Source of the DNA: an uncultured Pelagibacteraceae bacterium
GTDB lineage: Bacteria > Pseudomonadota > Alphaproteobacteria > Pelagibacterales > Pelagibacteraceae
Assembly (NCBI GenBank): GCA_902612345.1
Contig: CACMDE010000008.1
Location: forward strand, 1 to 55,011
Reading direction: 5' to 3'
DNA: 55,011 nucleotides
Position 1 is the first letter of the stretch; every line of letters begins with the position of its first letter. The notes beneath the pieces were generated by a model, which was given only the letters and a program-made list of their open reading frames with translations, ran no database searches and was not told the DNA's origin. Shown in pieces: positions 19,965 to 34,823 of this stretch. A program made the translations under genes and the position numbers.

Positions 19965-20269
19965 TTGAAAAAATTAAAAAAAATTATCTTTTTGTTATTG
20001 GGACATTTTTGTTTTTGTATTTTTTCTTTAATCTATTAGATGGTGAAAGAGGTTTTATTTCCCTTATTAAAAAAGAAAATTTGTTAAACCAATTGAAAAT
20101 TGAAGAAAAGCAATTAAATGAAACAATAACTGATTTAGAATTTAAAAATTCTTTATTAAGTAAAAATATAGATAAAGATTTTATTGAAATACTAATAAGA
20201 GAAAAATTAATTTATAGTAAAAAAGGTGAGAAAATATACGTATTAAAAAATAATGAAAAATCAAATTAG
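19961..20269 (+). CDS. FtsB/DivIC-family septum formation initiator
   Basis: This 102-residue protein has a single membrane segment near the N-terminus (about residues 9 to 25, [17 protein letters not shown]). A leucine-rich coiled coil follows (about 38 to 70) and then a short domain ending [19 protein letters not shown], the DivIC/FtsB pattern. FtsB bridges FtsL and FtsQ in the divisome. The gene between eno and the pdh/lip genes is a standard FtsB location in alphaproteobacteria. It overlaps eno by 4 and lipA by 17 bases. Confidence 0.85.
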
Positions 20270-25485: not shown

Positions 25486-26844
25486 ATGGCTAATGAAATA
25501 TTAATTGTAGATGATAATCCTGATATAAGAAATATTTTAAATGAATTAATATCAGACCTTGGTTATCAGACTAGATTGGCTGCTAATTATCAGCAAGCAT
25601 TAGCTGAAATCGACAAAAAGCTACCAGACGTGGCTTTGATTGATGTTAAATTAAGTAATACTGAAAATAACGAAGGTTTAAAACTTTTACATCATATAAA
25701 AAATAAAAACAAAGATATACCAGTTATTATTATATCTGGTCATGCAAATATTGAAATGGCTGTAGATTCATTAAGATTGGGTGCATTTGAATTTATACAA
25801 AAACCATTTGATAAAAACAGGTTAACTAATTTTATTAATAGAGCTGTAGAAAATCATAATCTTAAAAAAGAAAATAAAACTTTAAACGATAAATTATTTA
25901 ACTCATTTGATATTATTGGTGAAAGCAAGAATATTACTAATTTGAAAGATCAAATTAACCATCTTTCATCTTCAGATAGTAGAATTTTTATAACCGGTCC
26001 AATTGGTAGTGGTAAGGAGCTTGTAGCTAGAAAAATTCATCTCATATCTAATCGTAAAAATAAACCTTTTGTAATTATTAATGGAGCACTTCTTAATTCA
26101 GAAAAATATGAAAAAGAATTATTCGGCGAAGAGTCTGTTGATGGTTCAATAATTTATGGCGCATTAGAAAAAGCCTCAGGTGGAGTTTTATTAATTGATG
26201 AAGTGACTGAAATACCACTTGAAACTCAATCAAAAATATTACGTGTACTTACAGATCAAAAATTTAAAAGAATAAATGGAAAACATGATATTAATGTAAA
26301 TGTAAGAATTATTTGTTCTACAAATAAAGATTTAACTCACGAAATTCAAATTGGAAATTTTCGTGAAGACTTATATCATAGACTTAATGTCTTTAATATT
26401 AAACTAGAGCCGTTAAATAAAAGAGTAAAAGATATACCATTATTGGTTGATTATTTTATGAAAAAACTTTCAGAAATCTATAATATTAAAAAAATTCAAA
26501 TTAAAGATTTCAACTTTCTTTTGAATTATGATTGGCCTGGTAATGTAAGAGAATTAAGAAATTTAGTAGAAAGAATAATTATTTTATCACCTGGTCAAAA
26601 CCAAGATAAAATAAATGAAATAATTAAAGAGTCTTTATCAAAAAATTCAACGCACGAATTTAATATTTCTGAAAATCTTTCATTTACTTTAAGAGAGGCA
26701 AGAGAAAATTTTGAGAGAGAATATTTATCTTCACAATTAAAAAAATTCAGTGGAAATATATCAAAAACTGCTAAATTTGTTGGTATGGAAAGGTCTGCTT
26801 TACATAGGAAACTTAAACTTCTAGGAATAAAAGAATTTAATTAA
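25486..26844 (+). CDS. ntrX: NtrX-type response regulator
   Basis: This 452-residue response regulator has a receiver domain (Asp53 in LIDVKLSN, Lys106 in FIQKPF). An AAA+ domain follows (Walker A GPIGSGKE near 171 to 178, Walker B LLIDEV near 235 to 240, NWPGNVREL-type box as DWPGNVREL), and the protein ends in a Fis-type helix-turn-helix (FSGNISKTAKFVGMERSALHRKL). The sigma-54 contact loop GAFTGA is missing: the segment after ELFGEE reads SVDGSIIYGALEKASGG. That is a known trait of NtrX and suggests it works without sigma-54. It abuts trkA with no spacer. Confidence 0.93.
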   Translation: MANEILIVDDNPDIRNILNELISDLGYQTRLAANYQQALAEIDKKLPDVALIDVKLSNTENNEGLKLLHHIKNKNKDIPVIIISGHANIEMAVDSLRLGAFEFIQKPFDKNRLTNFINRAVENHNLKKENKTLNDKLFNSFDIIGESKNITNLKDQINHLSSSDSRIFITGPIGSGKELVARKIHLISNRKNKPFVIINGALLNSEKYEKELFGEESVDGSIIYGALEKASGGVLLIDEVTEIPLETQSKILRVLTDQKFKRINGKHDINVNVRIICSTNKDLTHEIQIGNFREDLYHRLNVFNIKLEPLNKRVKDIPLLVDYFMKKLSEIYNIKKIQIKDFNFLLNYDWPGNVRELRNLVERIIILSPGQNQDKINEIIKESLSKNSTHEFNISENLSFTLREARENFEREYLSSQLKKFSGNISKTAKFVGMERSALHRKLKLLGIKEFN

Positions 26845-29650: not shown

Positions 29651-29727
29651 GCGCCCTTAGCTCAGCTGGATAGAGCAACGGTTTTCTAAACCGTGGGTCG
29701 GAGGTTCGAATCCTTCAGGGCGCGCCA
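29651..29727 (+). tRNA. tRNA-Arg(TCT)
   Basis: A full cloverleaf folds. The acceptor GCGCCCT (29651-29657) pairs with AGGGCGC (29717-29723), the D-arm is GCTCAGCTGGATAGAGC, and the anticodon stem ACGGT/ACCGT frames loop TTTCTAA with anticodon TCT at 29685-29687. The T-arm contains GGTTCGAATCC. Discriminator G and an encoded CCA follow. It decodes AGA, the dominant Arg codon in this AT-rich genome. A short hairpin (AAAGT-CGT-ACTTT, 29729-29741) follows but lacks a good T-tract. Confidence 0.96.
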
Positions 29728-29767: not shown

Positions 29768-29796
29768 TTGATCAGTATTTAACTTTCTGTTTTAAT
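29768..29796 (+). promoter_or_regulatory. aapJ: Candidate aapJ promoter
   Basis: TTGATC (29768-29773) and TTTAAT (29791-29796), 17 bases apart, form the best vegetative promoter I see in the 133 bases between tRNA-Arg and aapJ. It would give a leader of about 57 bases containing both palindromes downstream. Confidence 0.4.
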
Positions 29797-29806
29797 TTAA
29801 TTAATT

Positions 29807-29840
29807 CAAAATTAATTTTGGATTATTTGTTAACAAATAA
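29807..29840. promoter_or_regulatory. Two adjacent perfect palindromes in the aapJ leader
   Basis: CAAAATTAATTTTG (29807-29820) and TTATTTGTTAACAAATAA (29823-29840) are perfect palindromes of 14 and 18 bases separated by two bases. The second ends 10 bases before the aapJ Shine-Dalgarno. Dyad symmetry without a loop suggests protein binding more than RNA hairpins. They could be operators for the downstream XRE regulator, NtrX or another factor. AT-richness makes short palindromes common, but an 18-base perfect one is rarer. Confidence 0.45.
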
Positions 29841-29860
29841 ATATAAATTAAGAGGAGATA

Positions 29861-30898
29861 ATGTTTAAAATCAAACAAATAACTTCTTTGCTAGCAGTTG
29901 TTGCGGTCCTATTTGGATTTGCTACTGAATCTTTTGCAGCAAAGAAATCTAAAACTCTAAAAAACACAATTAAACAAGGTTTTGTTAAGTGTGGTGTTTC
30001 TCAAGGTCTTCCTGGATTTTCAAACGCTGATGCATCTGGAAATTGGACAGGTGTCGACGTTGACGTATGTAGAGCTGTAGCTGCTGCAGTACTAGGTGAT
30101 GCGAACAAAGTTAAGTTCACACCACTAAGTGCTAAAGAAAGATTTACTGCACTGACTTCAGGTGAGATTGATGTTTTATCAAGAAACACAACTTGGACTT
30201 TGTCAAGAGACGCTGACATTGGATTAACTTTCGTTGGAGTTAACTTTTACGATGGTCAAGGATTCATGGTTAGAAAAAATTCAGGAATGACATCTGTGAA
30301 TGATTTCAAAGATGGTATTTCTGCATGTACTAACATTGGAACTACTACCGAGTTAAACATGAGAGACTTCTTTAACTCTAAAGGAATTTCTTATGAGCCA
30401 GTTGCTTTCGAAAAAGCTGATGAAGTCGTAGCTGCGTATGATGCTGGAAGATGTGATACATACACAACTGACAAATCTGGTTTAGCAGCTCAAAGAACTA
30501 AAATGTCTAATCCTGACGATCATATAGTATTACCTGAAACTATTTCTAAAGAACCTTTAGGACCAGTTGTAAGACAAGGTGATGCAGTATGGGAAGATAT
30601 CGTAAGATGGTCTTTAAATACTATGATTGAAGCTGAAGAGTACGGAATTAATTCTGGAAATGCAGATTCATTGAAAACTTCAGATAATCCTGCTGTAAAA
30701 AGAATAGTTGGTGCAGAAGGTGAAATGGGTGCAGCTTTAGGTCTAGACAACGACTGGAGTTTAAGAATTATCAAACAAGTTGGTAACTATGGTGAAAGCT
30801 ATAAGAGAAATATTGCTGACACAGGTATTTTACCAGATAGAGGTCCAAACGAAATTTGGACTAACGGTGGACTATTATATACTCCTCCAGCAAGATAA
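29861..30898 (+). CDS. aapJ: General L-amino acid ABC transporter, substrate-binding protein
   Basis: AapJ/BztA-type periplasmic receptor that captures L-amino acids for the AapQMP permease. The 345-residue protein has a signal peptide of about 26 residues (ending ATESFA), then the SBP_bac_3 fold with VKCGVSQGLPGFSNAD, WTGVDVDVCRAVAAAVLGD, DVLSRNTTWTLSRD and CDTYTTDKSGLAAQR. It has a strong Shine-Dalgarno, AGAGGAGA, just upstream. Its codons are visibly less AT-extreme than those of the neighbours, with many C-ending and GGA/GCT choices, as expected for a very highly expressed SAR11 binding protein. A stem-loop with a T-tract follows, before aapQ. Confidence 0.95.
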   Translation: MFKIKQITSLLAVVAVLFGFATESFAAKKSKTLKNTIKQGFVKCGVSQGLPGFSNADASGNWTGVDVDVCRAVAAAVLGDANKVKFTPLSAKERFTALTSGEIDVLSRNTTWTLSRDADIGLTFVGVNFYDGQGFMVRKNSGMTSVNDFKDGISACTNIGTTTELNMRDFFNSKGISYEPVAFEKADEVVAAYDAGRCDTYTTDKSGLAAQRTKMSNPDDHIVLPETISKEPLGPVVRQGDAVWEDIVRWSLNTMIEAEEYGINSGNADSLKTSDNPAVKRIVGAEGEMGAALGLDNDWSLRIIKQVGNYGESYKRNIADTGILPDRGPNEIWTNGGLLYTPPAR

Positions 30899-30972: not shown

Positions 30973-32124
30973 GTGAACGCCAAATTCAAAAAAATTATTC
31001 CACAGTTATTAACACTAGCTTTTGTAGCTTTGGTGTTTGGGTTCTTTAGTTACAATGCCCAACTTAACATGGAGAACAGAGGTATTTCTTTTGGTTATGG
31101 TTTCCTTTCGCAGGAGTCTTCGTTTGATGTTCAGTTTTCTTTAATTGAATATGACGGTTCACATTCATATTTTAGAGCTTATTTAGTTGGTTTACTTAAC
31201 ACCATTTTAGTTTCTGTTATTGGAATAATTTTTGCAACTATAATAGGAGTAATTGTTGGTATAGCAAGACTTTCTACAAATTTATTAATTAACAGAGCGG
31301 CAGCATATTACGTTGAATTTTTCAGAAATATTCCTTTGCTTTTACAAATATTCTTTTGGTACTTTGCAGCTTTAAGAGCGCTTCCTCTGCCAGAAGACGC
31401 CGAACCTATTTTTGGAGTTATATTCTTAACTATTAAAGGATTATTTATTCCAGCCTTTGTATGGAATAATTTAGATATTTTTTTATATTCATTATTAGCT
31501 GCAATAATTGCAACAATTGTAATTAGATCATATTCAAAAAGATTGAGAGAAAATGAGGGAAAACATATACCTGTTTTATACATATCATTAGGATTAGTTA
31601 TAGGCTTACCAATATTAAGTTTTTTAATTGGTGGTGTTAAGTTAAGCTTTGAAATACCAGAATTAGTTCAGTTAGCTAAAACATCTTTTAGATTTAATGG
31701 AGGATTAGGACTACCCCCTGAATTAATAGCATTAACATTAGCCTTAGCTTTATATACTGCTACATTTATAGCAGAGTGTGTTAGAGCGGGCATTCAAGGT
31801 GTAAGCAAAGGTCAAAAGGAAGCTGCTGCATCAATAGGCTTAACTCCTAATCAGGTTTTAAAACTTGTGATTATGCCTCAAGCTTTAAGGATAATTATAC
31901 CTCCAACTACAAATCAATATTTAAATTTAACTAAAAATTCATCTTTAGCTGCTGCTATTGCATATCCTGATTTAGTCTTAGTTTTTGCTGGTACAGCATT
32001 AATGCAAACCGGAAGAGCTATTGAAATTGTTTCAATAACAATGTTAACTTATTTGACATTAAGTGTTTCAATTTCAATATTGATGAATTGGTATAACAAG
32101 AAAATAGCTATCAAAGAGAAATAA
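30973..32124 (+). CDS. aapQ: General L-amino acid ABC transporter, permease AapQ
   Basis: This 383-residue inner-membrane permease starts at GTG 30973 (MNAKFKK). It has an N-terminal membrane segment, an extended periplasmic region, then the HisM-type core with VEFFRNIPLLLQIFFWYF, ECVRAGIQGVSKGQKEAAASIGLT (EAA loop contacting the ATPase), and NQYLNLTKNSSLAAAIAYPDL. It pairs with AapM and is energised by AapP. It lies 2 bases before aapM. No clear Shine-Dalgarno is visible, so translation may be weaker than that of aapJ. Confidence 0.93.
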   Translation: MNAKFKKIIPQLLTLAFVALVFGFFSYNAQLNMENRGISFGYGFLSQESSFDVQFSLIEYDGSHSYFRAYLVGLLNTILVSVIGIIFATIIGVIVGIARLSTNLLINRAAAYYVEFFRNIPLLLQIFFWYFAALRALPLPEDAEPIFGVIFLTIKGLFIPAFVWNNLDIFLYSLLAAIIATIVIRSYSKRLRENEGKHIPVLYISLGLVIGLPILSFLIGGVKLSFEIPELVQLAKTSFRFNGGLGLPPELIALTLALALYTATFIAECVRAGIQGVSKGQKEAAASIGLTPNQVLKLVIMPQALRIIIPPTTNQYLNLTKNSSLAAAIAYPDLVLVFAGTALMQTGRAIEIVSITMLTYLTLSVSISILMNWYNKKIAIKEK

Positions 32125-32125
32125 T

Positions 32126-33559
32126 ATGAAAATTGTAAATATTACTAAAGATAACTTTAATAATTACCTGTACTCAGGGATATTGTTAATTTTTATATCT
32201 ATTTTAGATGTTTTTTTAAATTCTTTTTTTTCAATAAATACTACTTCATTCTTGCCTGATTTTTTAAGCTTTGTTTTACCTTTAATAGTTGGATTTATAG
32301 GTCTTTATTTTATAAGAGTTGAACATTCAGGGATTAAAAATCTTGATATTATAAACAAAAATATAAATACCAATAATTTTAATGCTGTTCTAACTTTATT
32401 AATAATTTTTGTAATAATAAAATCATTACCTCCTTTTTTAAGTTGGTTTATTATTGATGCTAATATAGCAGGTGATTCAAAAGAATCTTGTACTGGCACA
32501 GGTGCATGTTGGACATATATAAAAATATGGCTAAGAAGATTTATTTATGGAATGTACCCTAACGCAGAGCAATGGAGAATAAACCTGTCCTTTATTTCAT
32601 TAACCGCTTTAGGTCTTGTTGGTTTTTTTGCAACTGAAAAATATAAGAAATATTTAACTTTATATTATGTTGTAATTTATCCATTTATCTCATTTTTATT
32701 TATATATTTTTTTATTTCAGGAGGTAGAATTTTCTTTGATTTTTCTTATGGAATTATTGCTGCAGCAGTATCAATAATATTAGGATTTTTTATTCCCAAT
32801 AAATTTAAGTTGTATTATTTTTTAATAGTACCGATAACTTTATATATTTTACTTAAATATGTATTTTTCTTTGAAGAATATATTGAACTTGGTATGATCG
32901 AAGGTCTAGTATGGGTTGAAACAGGTGCTTGGGGAGGATTATCTTTAACATTTATAATTTCTTTTTTCTGTTTAATATTTTGTTTTCCAATTGGAATGGC
33001 TCTTGCATTAGGAAGGAGATCTGATTTTCCGCTTATAAGATACATATGTATAGGTTTTATAGAATTCTGGCGTGGAGTTCCATTAATCACAGTATTATTT
33101 ATGTCATCAGTTATGTTTCCAATGTTTTTACCGCAAGATGTTTATGTAGATAAATTAGTCAGATGTATAATTGCTATTTCTTTGTTCGAAGCTGCTTATG
33201 TAGCTGAAGTTATAAGAGGGGGCCTACAAGCTTTACCAAGAGGTCAATATGATGCTGCAAAATCTTTAGGTATGGGATATTGGAAAATGCATATTTTTGT
33301 AATTTTGCCTCAAGCATTAAAACTTGTTATCCCTGGAATTGCTAATACATTTTTAGCATTAGTTAAAGATACTCCATTAATATTTGTGGTTGGATTGTTA
33401 GAAATTGTTGGAATGCTAAATTTAGCTAAAACTAACCCAGAATGGTTGGGATTTGCAATGGAGGGCTATGTCTTTGCAGCAATTATTTTCTGGATAATTT
33501 GTTATGCAATGAGTAAATATAGTTATAATTTAGAAATTAAATATAAAACAGAAAGATAA
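32126..33559 (+). CDS. aapM: General L-amino acid ABC transporter, permease AapM
   Basis: This 477-residue permease has a long N-terminal extension with several membrane segments, larger than the usual AapM of about 385. The C-terminal HisM-type core shows [38 protein letters not shown] (EAA loop) and [19 protein letters not shown]. The segment [13 protein letters not shown] in the middle is typical of AapM. It lies 5 bases before aapP. Confidence 0.93.
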
Positions 33560-33564
33560 AGACA

Positions 33565-34299
33565 ATGTCCGATCCGATAATTCAAATTAAAGATGTAAAC
33601 AAATGGTTTGGAGAGTTTCAAGTCTTAAAAAATATTAATTTAGAGGTAGAGAAAAATAAGAAAATTGTAGTTTGTGGTCCCTCAGGTTCAGGAAAGTCAA
33701 CTTTGATAAGATGTATAAATAGACTTGAAGAACATCAGGAAGGTCAAATAGTTGTTGATGGTAATGAATTGAGTGAAAATACAAAAAATATTGAACAAAT
33801 AAGAGCAGAAGTAGGTATGGTTTTTCAACAATTTAACTTATTTCCTCATTTATCAATTCTAGATAATTGTACATTGGCACCTATTTGGGTAAAACAAATG
33901 CCAAAAAAAGATGCAGAAGAATTGGCAATGCAACATCTTGAAAAAGTTCAAATTTCAGATCAAGCATTCAAATATCCCGGTCAACTGTCAGGAGGTCAAC
34001 AACAAAGATGTGCAATAGCTAGAGCTCTTTGTATGGAGCCAAAGATAATGCTTTTCGATGAACCAACATCAGCTTTAGATCCTGAAATGATCAAAGAAGT
34101 ATTGGATGCAATGGTTAATTTAGCTAAAGCTGGAATGACAATGATAGTTGTTACACATGAGATGGGATTTGCAAAAGAAGTTGCAGATGAAGTTATCTTT
34201 ATGGATGAAGGGATGATTGTTGAAAGAGCTGAAACAAAAGAGTTTTTTGCTAACCCTAAGAGTGATAGAACTAAATTATTCCTCAGTCAGATTTTATAA
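33565..34299 (+). CDS. aapP: General L-amino acid ABC transporter, ATP-binding protein
   Basis: This 244-residue ABC ATPase has Walker [10 protein letters not shown], the Q-loop [14 protein letters not shown], signature LSGGQQQR, Walker [15 protein letters not shown], and the switch histidine in VTHEMGFA. It is the GlnQ/HisP/AapP class for polar amino acids and completes the aapJQMP operon. The next gene is 155 bases on. Confidence 0.95.
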
Positions 34300-34454: not shown

Positions 34455-34823
34455 ATGGAAGATAATTTTAATAAACATTTAGGGAATAAACTTAAATTAA
34501 GAAGATTGGCATTAGGTTTAACACAAACAAAAGTTGCTAAAGCAATAAATGTAACTTTTCAACAAATACAAAAATACGAAAAAGGAACTAATGGAGTAAG
34601 CTCACTACGTTTACTTCAACTTTCAAACTATTTAAAAGTACCTATAAACTATTTCTTTGAGGATTTTTCAGAATATTTAATCAATCTAGAAAAATCTAAA
34701 GAAGGGCATATGAATGTAAATTATAATTTTTTAGTTAAACTTTATTCTGAGTTAACAGAGGATCAAAAGACTAAATTTTCTAAAAATTTAAATATAAATT
34801 CGGCAATTTCGAAAGTTGGATAA
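34455..34823 (+). CDS. XRE-family helix-turn-helix transcriptional regulator
   Basis: This 122-residue DNA-binding protein has an N-terminal Cro/CI-type helix-turn-helix (about residues 8 to 62: GNKLKLRRLALGLTQTKVAK, NVTFQQIQKYEKGTNGVSS) and a short helical C-terminal part (LVKLYSELTEDQKTKFSKNL). This form resembles small alphaproteobacterial regulators of the PsrA/SinR-like XRE type. ATG 34455 follows a GAGGGG Shine-Dalgarno at 34442-34447; an in-frame TTG at 34440 is less likely. It lies downstream of the aap operon and next to two tRNAs. The target is unknown. Confidence 0.85.
   Translation: MEDNFNKHLGNKLKLRRLALGLTQTKVAKAINVTFQQIQKYEKGTNGVSSLRLLQLSNYLKVPINYFFEDFSEYLINLEKSKEGHMNVNYNFLVKLYSELTEDQKTKFSKNLNINSAISKVG

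Follow-up and report, generated by a model that had tools for sequence, protein, structure and literature searches.

How are two perfect palindromes, lying two bases apart between the promoter and the ribosome binding site of a strongly expressed transporter gene, to be read: as operators of a dimeric protein, as RNA structure, or as a by-product of AT-rich sequence? The question is raised by the aapJ (yhdW) leader in a 55,011-nt stretch of contig CACMDE010000008.1 from an uncultured Pelagibacteraceae bacterium (assembly GCA_902612345.1), the whole of which is called the window below. According to the available part of PMC5069720 (Table 2), AapJ (YhdW) ranks among the most heavily read SAR11 transcripts at sea, and PMC13198564 (available in part) considers SAR11 to be very poor in transcription regulators. 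A preliminary description of this DNA took both dyads for protein operators and proposed as binder either the XRE-type dimer encoded after aapP or NtrX. The two palindromes, two bases apart and upstream of the Shine-Dalgarno sequence, are confirmed here, in the reverse of the order in which they had been listed. In what follows, g1 is the set treated as the window's genus, and g5 and g6 are two sister genera. The features of the locus are as follows.

25486..26844, + strand: ntrX, gene of a regulator named in the preliminary description
29651..29727, + strand: tRNA-Arg (TCT), upstream neighbour of the aapJ leader (ARAGORN and Rfam)
29768..29796, + strand: predicted sigma-70 promoter of aapJ (TTGATC, 17 nt, TTTAAT; TG one base 5' of the -10 box)
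29802..29803, + strand: predicted transcription start of aapJ, transferred to the window from HTCC7211 yhdW
29802..29825, + strand: hairpin 1, predicted 5'-terminal RNA stem-loop containing palindrome 1; loop 29812-29815; one U-G wobble (29806-29821)
29807..29820, no strand: palindrome 1, CAAAATTAATTTTG, seen in the sequence
29823..29840, no strand: palindrome 2, TTATTTGTTAACAAATAA, whose outer bases overlap hairpin 1
29827..29836, no strand: TTGTTAACAA core of palindrome 2, common to livK and invariant in the g1, g5 and g6 aapJ leaders read
about 29850..29857, + strand: Shine-Dalgarno sequence AAGAGGAG of aapJ, seen in the sequence
29861..30898, + strand: aapJ (yhdW), amino-acid ABC transporter substrate-binding protein (SBP_bac_3), ATG at 29861
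30973..34299, + strand: aapQ, aapM and aapP (permeases, ATPase), with domain evidence for the first permease and the ATPase
34455..34823, + strand: XRE-type regulator gene 3' of aapP

The names aapQ, aapM and aapP are presumed on the basis of homology. The best NCBIfam model for AapJ is that of lysine/arginine/ornithine binding, with a score below the model cut-off. Between positions 20000 and 42000 of the window Rfam reports tRNAs only, the leader having no match above the gathering score.

Counts alone place the palindromes near chance. At the window's 73% AT, perfect palindromes of 18 bp or longer average 1.55 per dinucleotide shuffle (60 shuffles), and the real sequence holds 2; a lone 18-mer therefore does not stand out. 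What is rare is an 18-mer with a 14-mer no more than 5 nt away, a combination that came up once in the same 60 shuffles. Sequences within 2 mismatches of TTTGTTAACAAA number 33 in the window against a mean of 25, a count reached by 9 of 100 shuffles and not significant. The exact 12-mer occurs once in the window's own assembly (1.07 Mb, 83% complete), and the 10-mer TTGTTAACAA 5 times against 11 for its backward-read control; there is therefore no genome-wide excess. When up to 3 mismatches are allowed, near matches in the own assembly number 22 against 15 for the control, and two of them that were examined both lie inside ORFs. In 75 kb of the own genome, 61 ORFs of 160 aa or more were compared, and the two longest palindromes in the 70 nt before their starts are those of aapJ (18 bp) and livK (14 bp).

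What sets the aapJ palindromes above chance is their conservation. The g1 set consists of 81 aapJ leaders, namely the window and the best 80 of at least 588 relatives, picked by AapJ protein alone. All 81 contain ATTTGTTAACAAAT, and 80 contain the full 18-mer, the exception (L018) differing at one outer base. Pairwise identity is 0.999 for the 18-mer, as compared to 0.45 for blocks upstream, 0.50 for the promoter spacer and 0.58 for the sequence 3' of the dyad. Among the 74 of the 81 sequences with the same CDS length, the longest invariant run is 17 nt in the leader vs. 8 nt in the aapJ CDS, and fourfold-degenerate sites of the CDS have a pairwise identity of 0.74. In the sister genera, TTGTTAACAA is found in 30 of 30 protein-selected aapJ leaders, 29 times as TATTGTTAACAATA, in which the first flanking base is altered on both sides together. 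The aapJ orthologues of genera g2, g3 and g4 and of the second family do not contain TTGTTAACAA (0/13, four weak paralogues being excluded from this count).

Of 297 genomes searched by pattern within the order, 167 contain ATTTGTTAACAAAT, and by our own tally 159 of these belong to g1. Eight g1 genomes that lack ATTTGTTAACAAAT were checked and show no aapJ in the assembly, one of them having only a 24% identical paralogue. Loci selected by the motif itself, together with the pattern-selected livK set, were not used as conservation evidence; 7 of 30 and 7 of 45 such loci in the two sets read are not at aapJ. In one genome (G125, C29, 5300-6000; L339) the tRNA-Arg runs into an aapP-like start, both palindromes are absent, and aapJ, aapQ and aapM seem to be truly lost. 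The aapJ leaders of the second family (L134-L137) carry AATTTAATTAAATT-type or TTAATTAATTAATTAA-type palindromes.

In the leader alignment the dyads are much more conserved than the sequence around them, an outcome that the preliminary description had named as support: the palindromes exist and are strongly selected. The idea that they are a functionless by-product of AT composition could draw on the chance-level count of 18-bp palindromes and on the lack of an excess of TTGTTAACAA, but it is already refuted by conservation in every leader of the three genera against strongly diverged flanks, to which the recurrence at livK is added, and we give it practically no credence.

Where the palindromes stand relative to the transcript can be judged from HTCC7211. 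PMC5069720 mapped Red Sea mdRNA-Seq reads to this Pelagibacter strain, and the available part of its Table 2 gives gene coordinates. These are taken here as start-site-extended, because tuf, which has no start-site reads, is given as the exact CDS while other genes reach upstream. Genome G013 is taken to be HTCC7211 because the coordinates of all five genes fit. By these coordinates the extension 5' of the ATG is 60 nt for yhdW, 34 nt for PB7211_130, 25 nt for potD and 28 nt for tauA, and the aapJ transcript starts at ATATTCAAAATACG / ATATTCAAAATACGTTTTGAAT. Hairpin 1 then begins at +2/+3, within the few nucleotides of +1 expected of a 5'-terminal stem-loop, and TTGTTAACAA lies at +26 to +35. 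On this reading of the partly available table, both palindromes are inside the HTCC7211 transcript.

The promoter predictions agree with the HTCC7211 start site. The +1 of yhdW is the sixth base after TTAAAT, the -10 box seen most often in g1 leaders, and a similar predicted layout is found in most relatives. Hairpin 1 is predicted 3-8 nt after the -10 box in 79/81 g1, 25/25 g5 and 5/5 g6 leaders, and the distance from the -10 box to the core is 29-31 in 79/81 g1 leaders and 28-32 in 109 of all 111, with the reservation that promoters were picked by best score near the hairpin, a choice that favours such agreement in spacing. Consensus scoring could not fix the livK promoter, several candidates being mixed; for this reason the published start of PB7211_130, the livK gene of HTCC7211, was used, which puts the core at +11 to +20 of that transcript (from the same part of the table).

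For palindrome 1 an RNA hairpin at the mRNA 5' end is a better explanation than an operator, because its loop is variable and non-palindromic, the window has a U-G wobble in the stem, and the arms are replaced together between genera. In g1 the arms are approximately ATTCAAA..TTTGAAT, around a loop that varies in both length and sequence; in g6 they are AATTACA..TGTAATT, and in g5 mostly TTTTGAATT..AATTCAAAA or TTTTGAAAC..GTTTCAAAA. The 32 nt holding hairpin 1 fold better than shuffles, with mean z of -3.2 (g1), -3.2 (g5) and -4.2 (g6). Matched halves give means of -5.0 (g1), -4.3 (g5) and -5.4 (g6) kcal/mol; when halves are swapped between genera, the values are -0.2 to -1.9 kcal/mol. Since matched halves fold and the swaps fold poorly, the structure has been kept while the sequence was replaced. 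The minimum free energy (MFE) structure of the whole leader at 37 °C contains hairpin 1 in 73/81 g1, 25/25 g5 and 5/5 g6 leaders. In the window's own leader it is absent from the MFE structure at 37 °C (probability 0.45) and present at 18 °C (0.71); at 37 °C this leader has a z of -0.83, and 35 of 200 shuffles fold as well. Compensatory changes, which the preliminary description had named as support, are found in the arms of hairpin 1, and none was seen inside the TTGTTAACAA core.

Palindrome 2 behaves differently from palindrome 1 in that its core, centre included, is unchanged in all g1, g5 and g6 aapJ leaders read. The own genome has five copies of TTGTTAACAA: one at aapJ, one 5' of the Shine-Dalgarno sequence of livK, which encodes a binding protein of the branched-chain type (Peripla_BP_6), and three inside ORFs. 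A search of 12 g1 genomes yielded 11 protein-selected livK orthologues, 9 of which have the core 5' of the Shine-Dalgarno sequence; of the two exceptions one (L295) has a single change in the core and the other (L296, in G005) has TTTTAATTAATTAAAA instead. The same core was seen at livK in 18 further genomes, which were pattern-selected. It is absent at livK from one close g6 orthologue and from three second-family orthologues. The available part of PMC5069961 names HTCC1062 SAR11_1361 livJ2, which is likely the counterpart of the own-genome livK. Among the matches listed for 46 genomes of the genus, with 20 stretches read, no gene other than aapJ and livK was recognised with the core followed by a Shine-Dalgarno sequence and a start, and in these 46 genomes a core-then-ATG pattern is no commoner than its backward control. 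In g5, TTGTTAACAA also stands 5' of the Shine-Dalgarno sequence of a gene that looks by eye like a ribonucleotide reductase gene, in three of six genomes (L344, L345, L346).

A search upstream of other transporter genes had been proposed in the preliminary description, and its outcome is that the core of palindrome 2 recurs before livK. Of its claim that the zero-spacer dyads are protein operators, the part on palindrome 2 is supported in so far as palindrome 2 looks like a sequence-specific dyad shared with livK, but palindrome 1 fits an RNA hairpin better. The aapJ leader is a 5' RNA hairpin followed by a dyad common to two amino-acid uptake genes. In line with a homodimer operator, palindrome 2 is a perfect conserved inverted repeat and recurs at one further gene; its centre is symmetric and does not vary, as a homodimer site would predict.

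The composite reading that we prefer, at somewhat less than even confidence, is that palindrome 1 acts as a 5' RNA hairpin and palindrome 2 as a DNA dyad read by a dimeric regulator or DNA-binding protein, also at livK. The aapJ leader would form a 5' UTR of about 60 nt that opens with a hairpin built around palindrome 1, and this hairpin probably shields the mRNA 5' end from decay. Palindrome 2, that is TTGTTAACAA with its symmetric A/T flanks, would be read by a putative dimeric regulator, the same at livK. A protein bound at about +26 to +35 (aapJ) or +11 to +20 (livK) may limit promoter clearance or elongation, and two amino-acid uptake systems could in this way be tuned together through a common dyad.

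The main competitor assigns both palindromes to RNA. Tandem 5' hairpins, the second being AUUUG-UUAA-CAAAU, would determine how stable the mRNA is or how it is translated, the UUAA loop or the stem sequence being recognised post-transcriptionally, and the palindromes of other binding-protein genes would be the same device. An RNA role of palindrome 2 is conceivable because hairpin 2 is in the MFE structure of many whole leaders at 37 °C (55/81 g1, 22/25 g5, 4/5 g6); both hairpins occur together in 53/81 g1, 22/25 g5 and 4/5 g6, and both palindromes lie in the transcript as mapped by the part of the table used here. The available part of PMC13198564, citing a 2013 paper, states that YhdW protein and transcript levels are uncoupled, which would suit such regulation. 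On the other hand, palindrome 2 alone is worth only -2.3 kcal/mol and the livK hairpin -1.0 kcal/mol, the constant core offers no covariation, and a hairpin does not need a self-complementary loop, yet the palindrome centres are symmetric.

Further evidence for a role in RNA comes from other binding-protein genes. The available part of PMC5069720 Table 2 has 28 genes with start-site reads, 24 of which were examined (glcB, PB7211_885, PB7211_1419 and ftsH were left out). All six binding-protein leaders, those of potD, tauA, opuAC, dctP, livK and aapJ, are 25-60 nt long and hold a perfect palindrome of 10 bp or more (10-18 bp), where mononucleotide shuffles of the same leaders give an expectation of 0.45; four of the six palindromes begin at +1 or +2. 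The other genes have such a palindrome in 2 of 15 cases (0.85 expected), other transporters in 0 of 2 and a membrane protein in 0 of 1. Several of the others start at or near the ATG; when only genes with a real leader are compared, by hand count, the result is 6/6 binding-protein genes vs. 2/7 others (Fisher 0.02). All these counts refer to the same part of the table.

Palindromy in these leaders is kept while the sequence and the spacing of the half-sites change. The potD palindrome ACGTTAACGT corresponds to CGTTTAAACG in relatives (three genomes with 72-73% protein identity, two of the leaders being nearly the same), and the opuAC palindrome ATTAATATATTAAT to CTTAATATTAAG, the own-genome match being 75% identical over 32 residues. 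The amt leader has no palindrome over 6 bp in three genomes. The different palindromes at other binding-protein genes, with the replacement at livK in G005, look like selection for palindromy rather than for the site of one protein. Over 155 kb of the own genome, 5 of 9 signal-peptide-like genes have a palindrome of at least 12 bp before them vs. 2 of 55 others (Fisher 0.0003), where signal-peptide-like is defined by a crude home-made rule and one of the five matches is by eye not a binding protein. In relatives the figures are 4/17 vs. 9/124 (Fisher 0.053), near-identical leaders being counted twice.

Folding gives a mixed picture. In favour of RNA structure, bases 2-4 of the tauA and opuAC mRNAs are 70-82% paired at 18 °C, and the proteorhodopsin leader of HTCC7211 folds like that of aapJ, with two abutting hairpins, the second of which is the perfect 16-bp palindrome TAGTTTATATAAACTA (L370, G013:C1:529536-529736). 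Against it, the potD, tauA and opuAC leaders have an MFE of 0 at 37 °C and of 0 to -1.2 kcal/mol at 18 °C, and the 18 °C MFE structure of the potD, dctP and livK leaders is not the palindrome hairpin. Taking both sides together, we regard the purely RNA-based explanation as possible but somewhat less likely than the composite reading.

A/T-rich perfect palindromes near +1 and next to the Shine-Dalgarno sequence were also seen at L361, L362, L365, L373 (G013), L384, L385 (own genome C2), L387, L396, L397 and L399; the genes at these loci are potD, tauA, opuAC, dctP and, by eye, ProX-like and RbsB-like genes, and the sequence differs from gene to gene. Other binding-protein genes of g5 and g6 (L303-L309) have TTAATTAATTAA-type palindromes 5' of the Shine-Dalgarno sequence. 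We tentatively suggest, with clearly less than even confidence, a wider rule: SAR11 binding-protein mRNAs may be marked by a perfect, mostly A/T palindrome from near the first transcribed base to the Shine-Dalgarno sequence, a general expression device for the most abundant proteins that would replace gene-by-gene regulators in Lrp-less lineages, with palindromy kept while sequence and spacing drift and with the double form of aapJ as the most elaborate.

As to which protein might bind the dyad, the regulator encoded 3' of aapP is presumably a PraR/CdxA orthologue. As a dimeric helix-turn-helix type lying about 4.6-6.1 kb 3' of aapJ in those g1, g5 and g6 genomes that have both on one contig, it is a natural candidate, and palindrome 2 would be its operator. 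In g3 and g4, too, the gene and aapJ are no more than 10 kb apart, and a match was found in none of the four second-family genomes. However, g2, g3 and g4 have no dyad in their aapJ leaders and yet share the XRE stretch TFQQIQKYEKGTNGVSS, taken as the recognition helix, without any change. The sequence preceding the XRE gene, read over up to 160 nt in the window and 21 relatives, contains no TTGTTAACAA, one g6 leader (L163) having AGTTAACT. The published PraR consensus is CAAC-N5-GTTG (PMC5527310) or TTGCAA (PMC4149787), and neither palindrome fits either form as given in the available parts of these papers. The XRE-type dimer put forward in the preliminary description is hence very unlikely as the binder.

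An argument that the dyad persists without XRE was dropped. Genomes G042, G056, G066, G117 and G120 keep the livK core and show no aapJ or XRE matches, with no full NtrX in four and one near a contig end in G042; a probable assembly gap accounts for this, contig ends at the locus break being confirmed for G042 and G117. In these two and similar assemblies the ntrX-aap-xre locus lies at contig ends, and its apparent absence there is probably a gap.

NtrX, the other binder suggested earlier, would couple uptake to nitrogen status. The ntrYX genes are 3 kb upstream of the leader, and the available part of PMC13198564 presents NtrX as regulator of the SAR11 nitrogen-limitation response. Its site, CAAN2-5TTG in the part of PMC9223101 used here, is nevertheless unmatched, palindrome 2 being TTG-N4-CAA and palindrome 1 CAA-N8-TTG, and the latter becomes TTTTGAA..TTCAAAA in g5. 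All NtrX proteins read from g2, g3, g4 and the second family, where the dyad is lacking, have the helix stretch GMERSALHRKL in unaltered form, and one g1 protein (L322) has T for S. We consider NtrX highly improbable here. The motif mismatch lowers both candidates, although the specificities of the SAR11 XRE and NtrX proteins may differ from those of the relatives in which the sites were described.

AsnC/Lrp (PF01037) was found in 0 of 9 genomes of g1, g5 and g6, whereas 8 of 8 genomes of the order's other genera have one. Each of the nine Lrp-lacking genomes has the dyad, at aapJ in eight and at livK in G020, so Lrp cannot read it. The dyad marks genera without Lrp; if g1, g5 and g6 form one clade, this match is one event. 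Among the regulators examined (XRE, NtrX and Lrp) no binder fitted. From the nucleotide evidence assembled here, an operator-like palindrome 2 appears to be the most likely reading, without a wide margin over an RNA-level role.

Among the matches listed in literature searches on Pelagibacter palindromes, regulators and structured RNA, the element is undescribed as judged by title and the start of the abstract, and those listed for TTGTTAACAA include none on SAR11 by title. The screen for structured RNAs in Pelagibacter (PMC2704228) describes cis elements in SAR11 leaders. In the available part of that work it covers GC-enriched regions over 100 bp and omits regions with tRNA or rRNA from its table, and its main text does not contain aapJ, yhdW or SAR11_0953; the aapJ leader was probably missed because of this scope. 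Sites of the PraR/CdxA type resemble the aapJ dyad in being palindromic and alphaproteobacterial, and NtrX sites in being short palindromes with CAA/TTG half-sites; the former differ from TTGTTAACAA in sequence and the latter in half-site order and spacing, as far as the parts of the papers cited above for the two motifs go.

An element of the leader whose invariant run exceeds any in the coding sequence, and which two uptake systems share, offers a testable handle on how transporter levels are set, and if the palindromes of other binding-protein genes are the same device, a general rule for the SAR11 group would follow. Two known classes come closest. Simple homodimeric-repressor operators placed just downstream of +1 are a general bacterial class. 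The aapJ dyad is like them in being perfect, spacerless, located between promoter and Shine-Dalgarno sequence, strictly kept and present at two functionally related promoters; it differs in that the aapJ leader also has an RNA hairpin and that the corresponding position in related genes is taken by other palindromes. The other class is that of 5'-terminal mRNA stabilising stem-loops of the ompA type. Hairpin 1 differs from these in being AU-rich, weak and directly followed by a sequence-constrained dyad, with stabilisation putative in its case, but like them it starts from +2/+3 of the mRNA of a strongly expressed envelope protein and keeps its pairing while its sequence changes.
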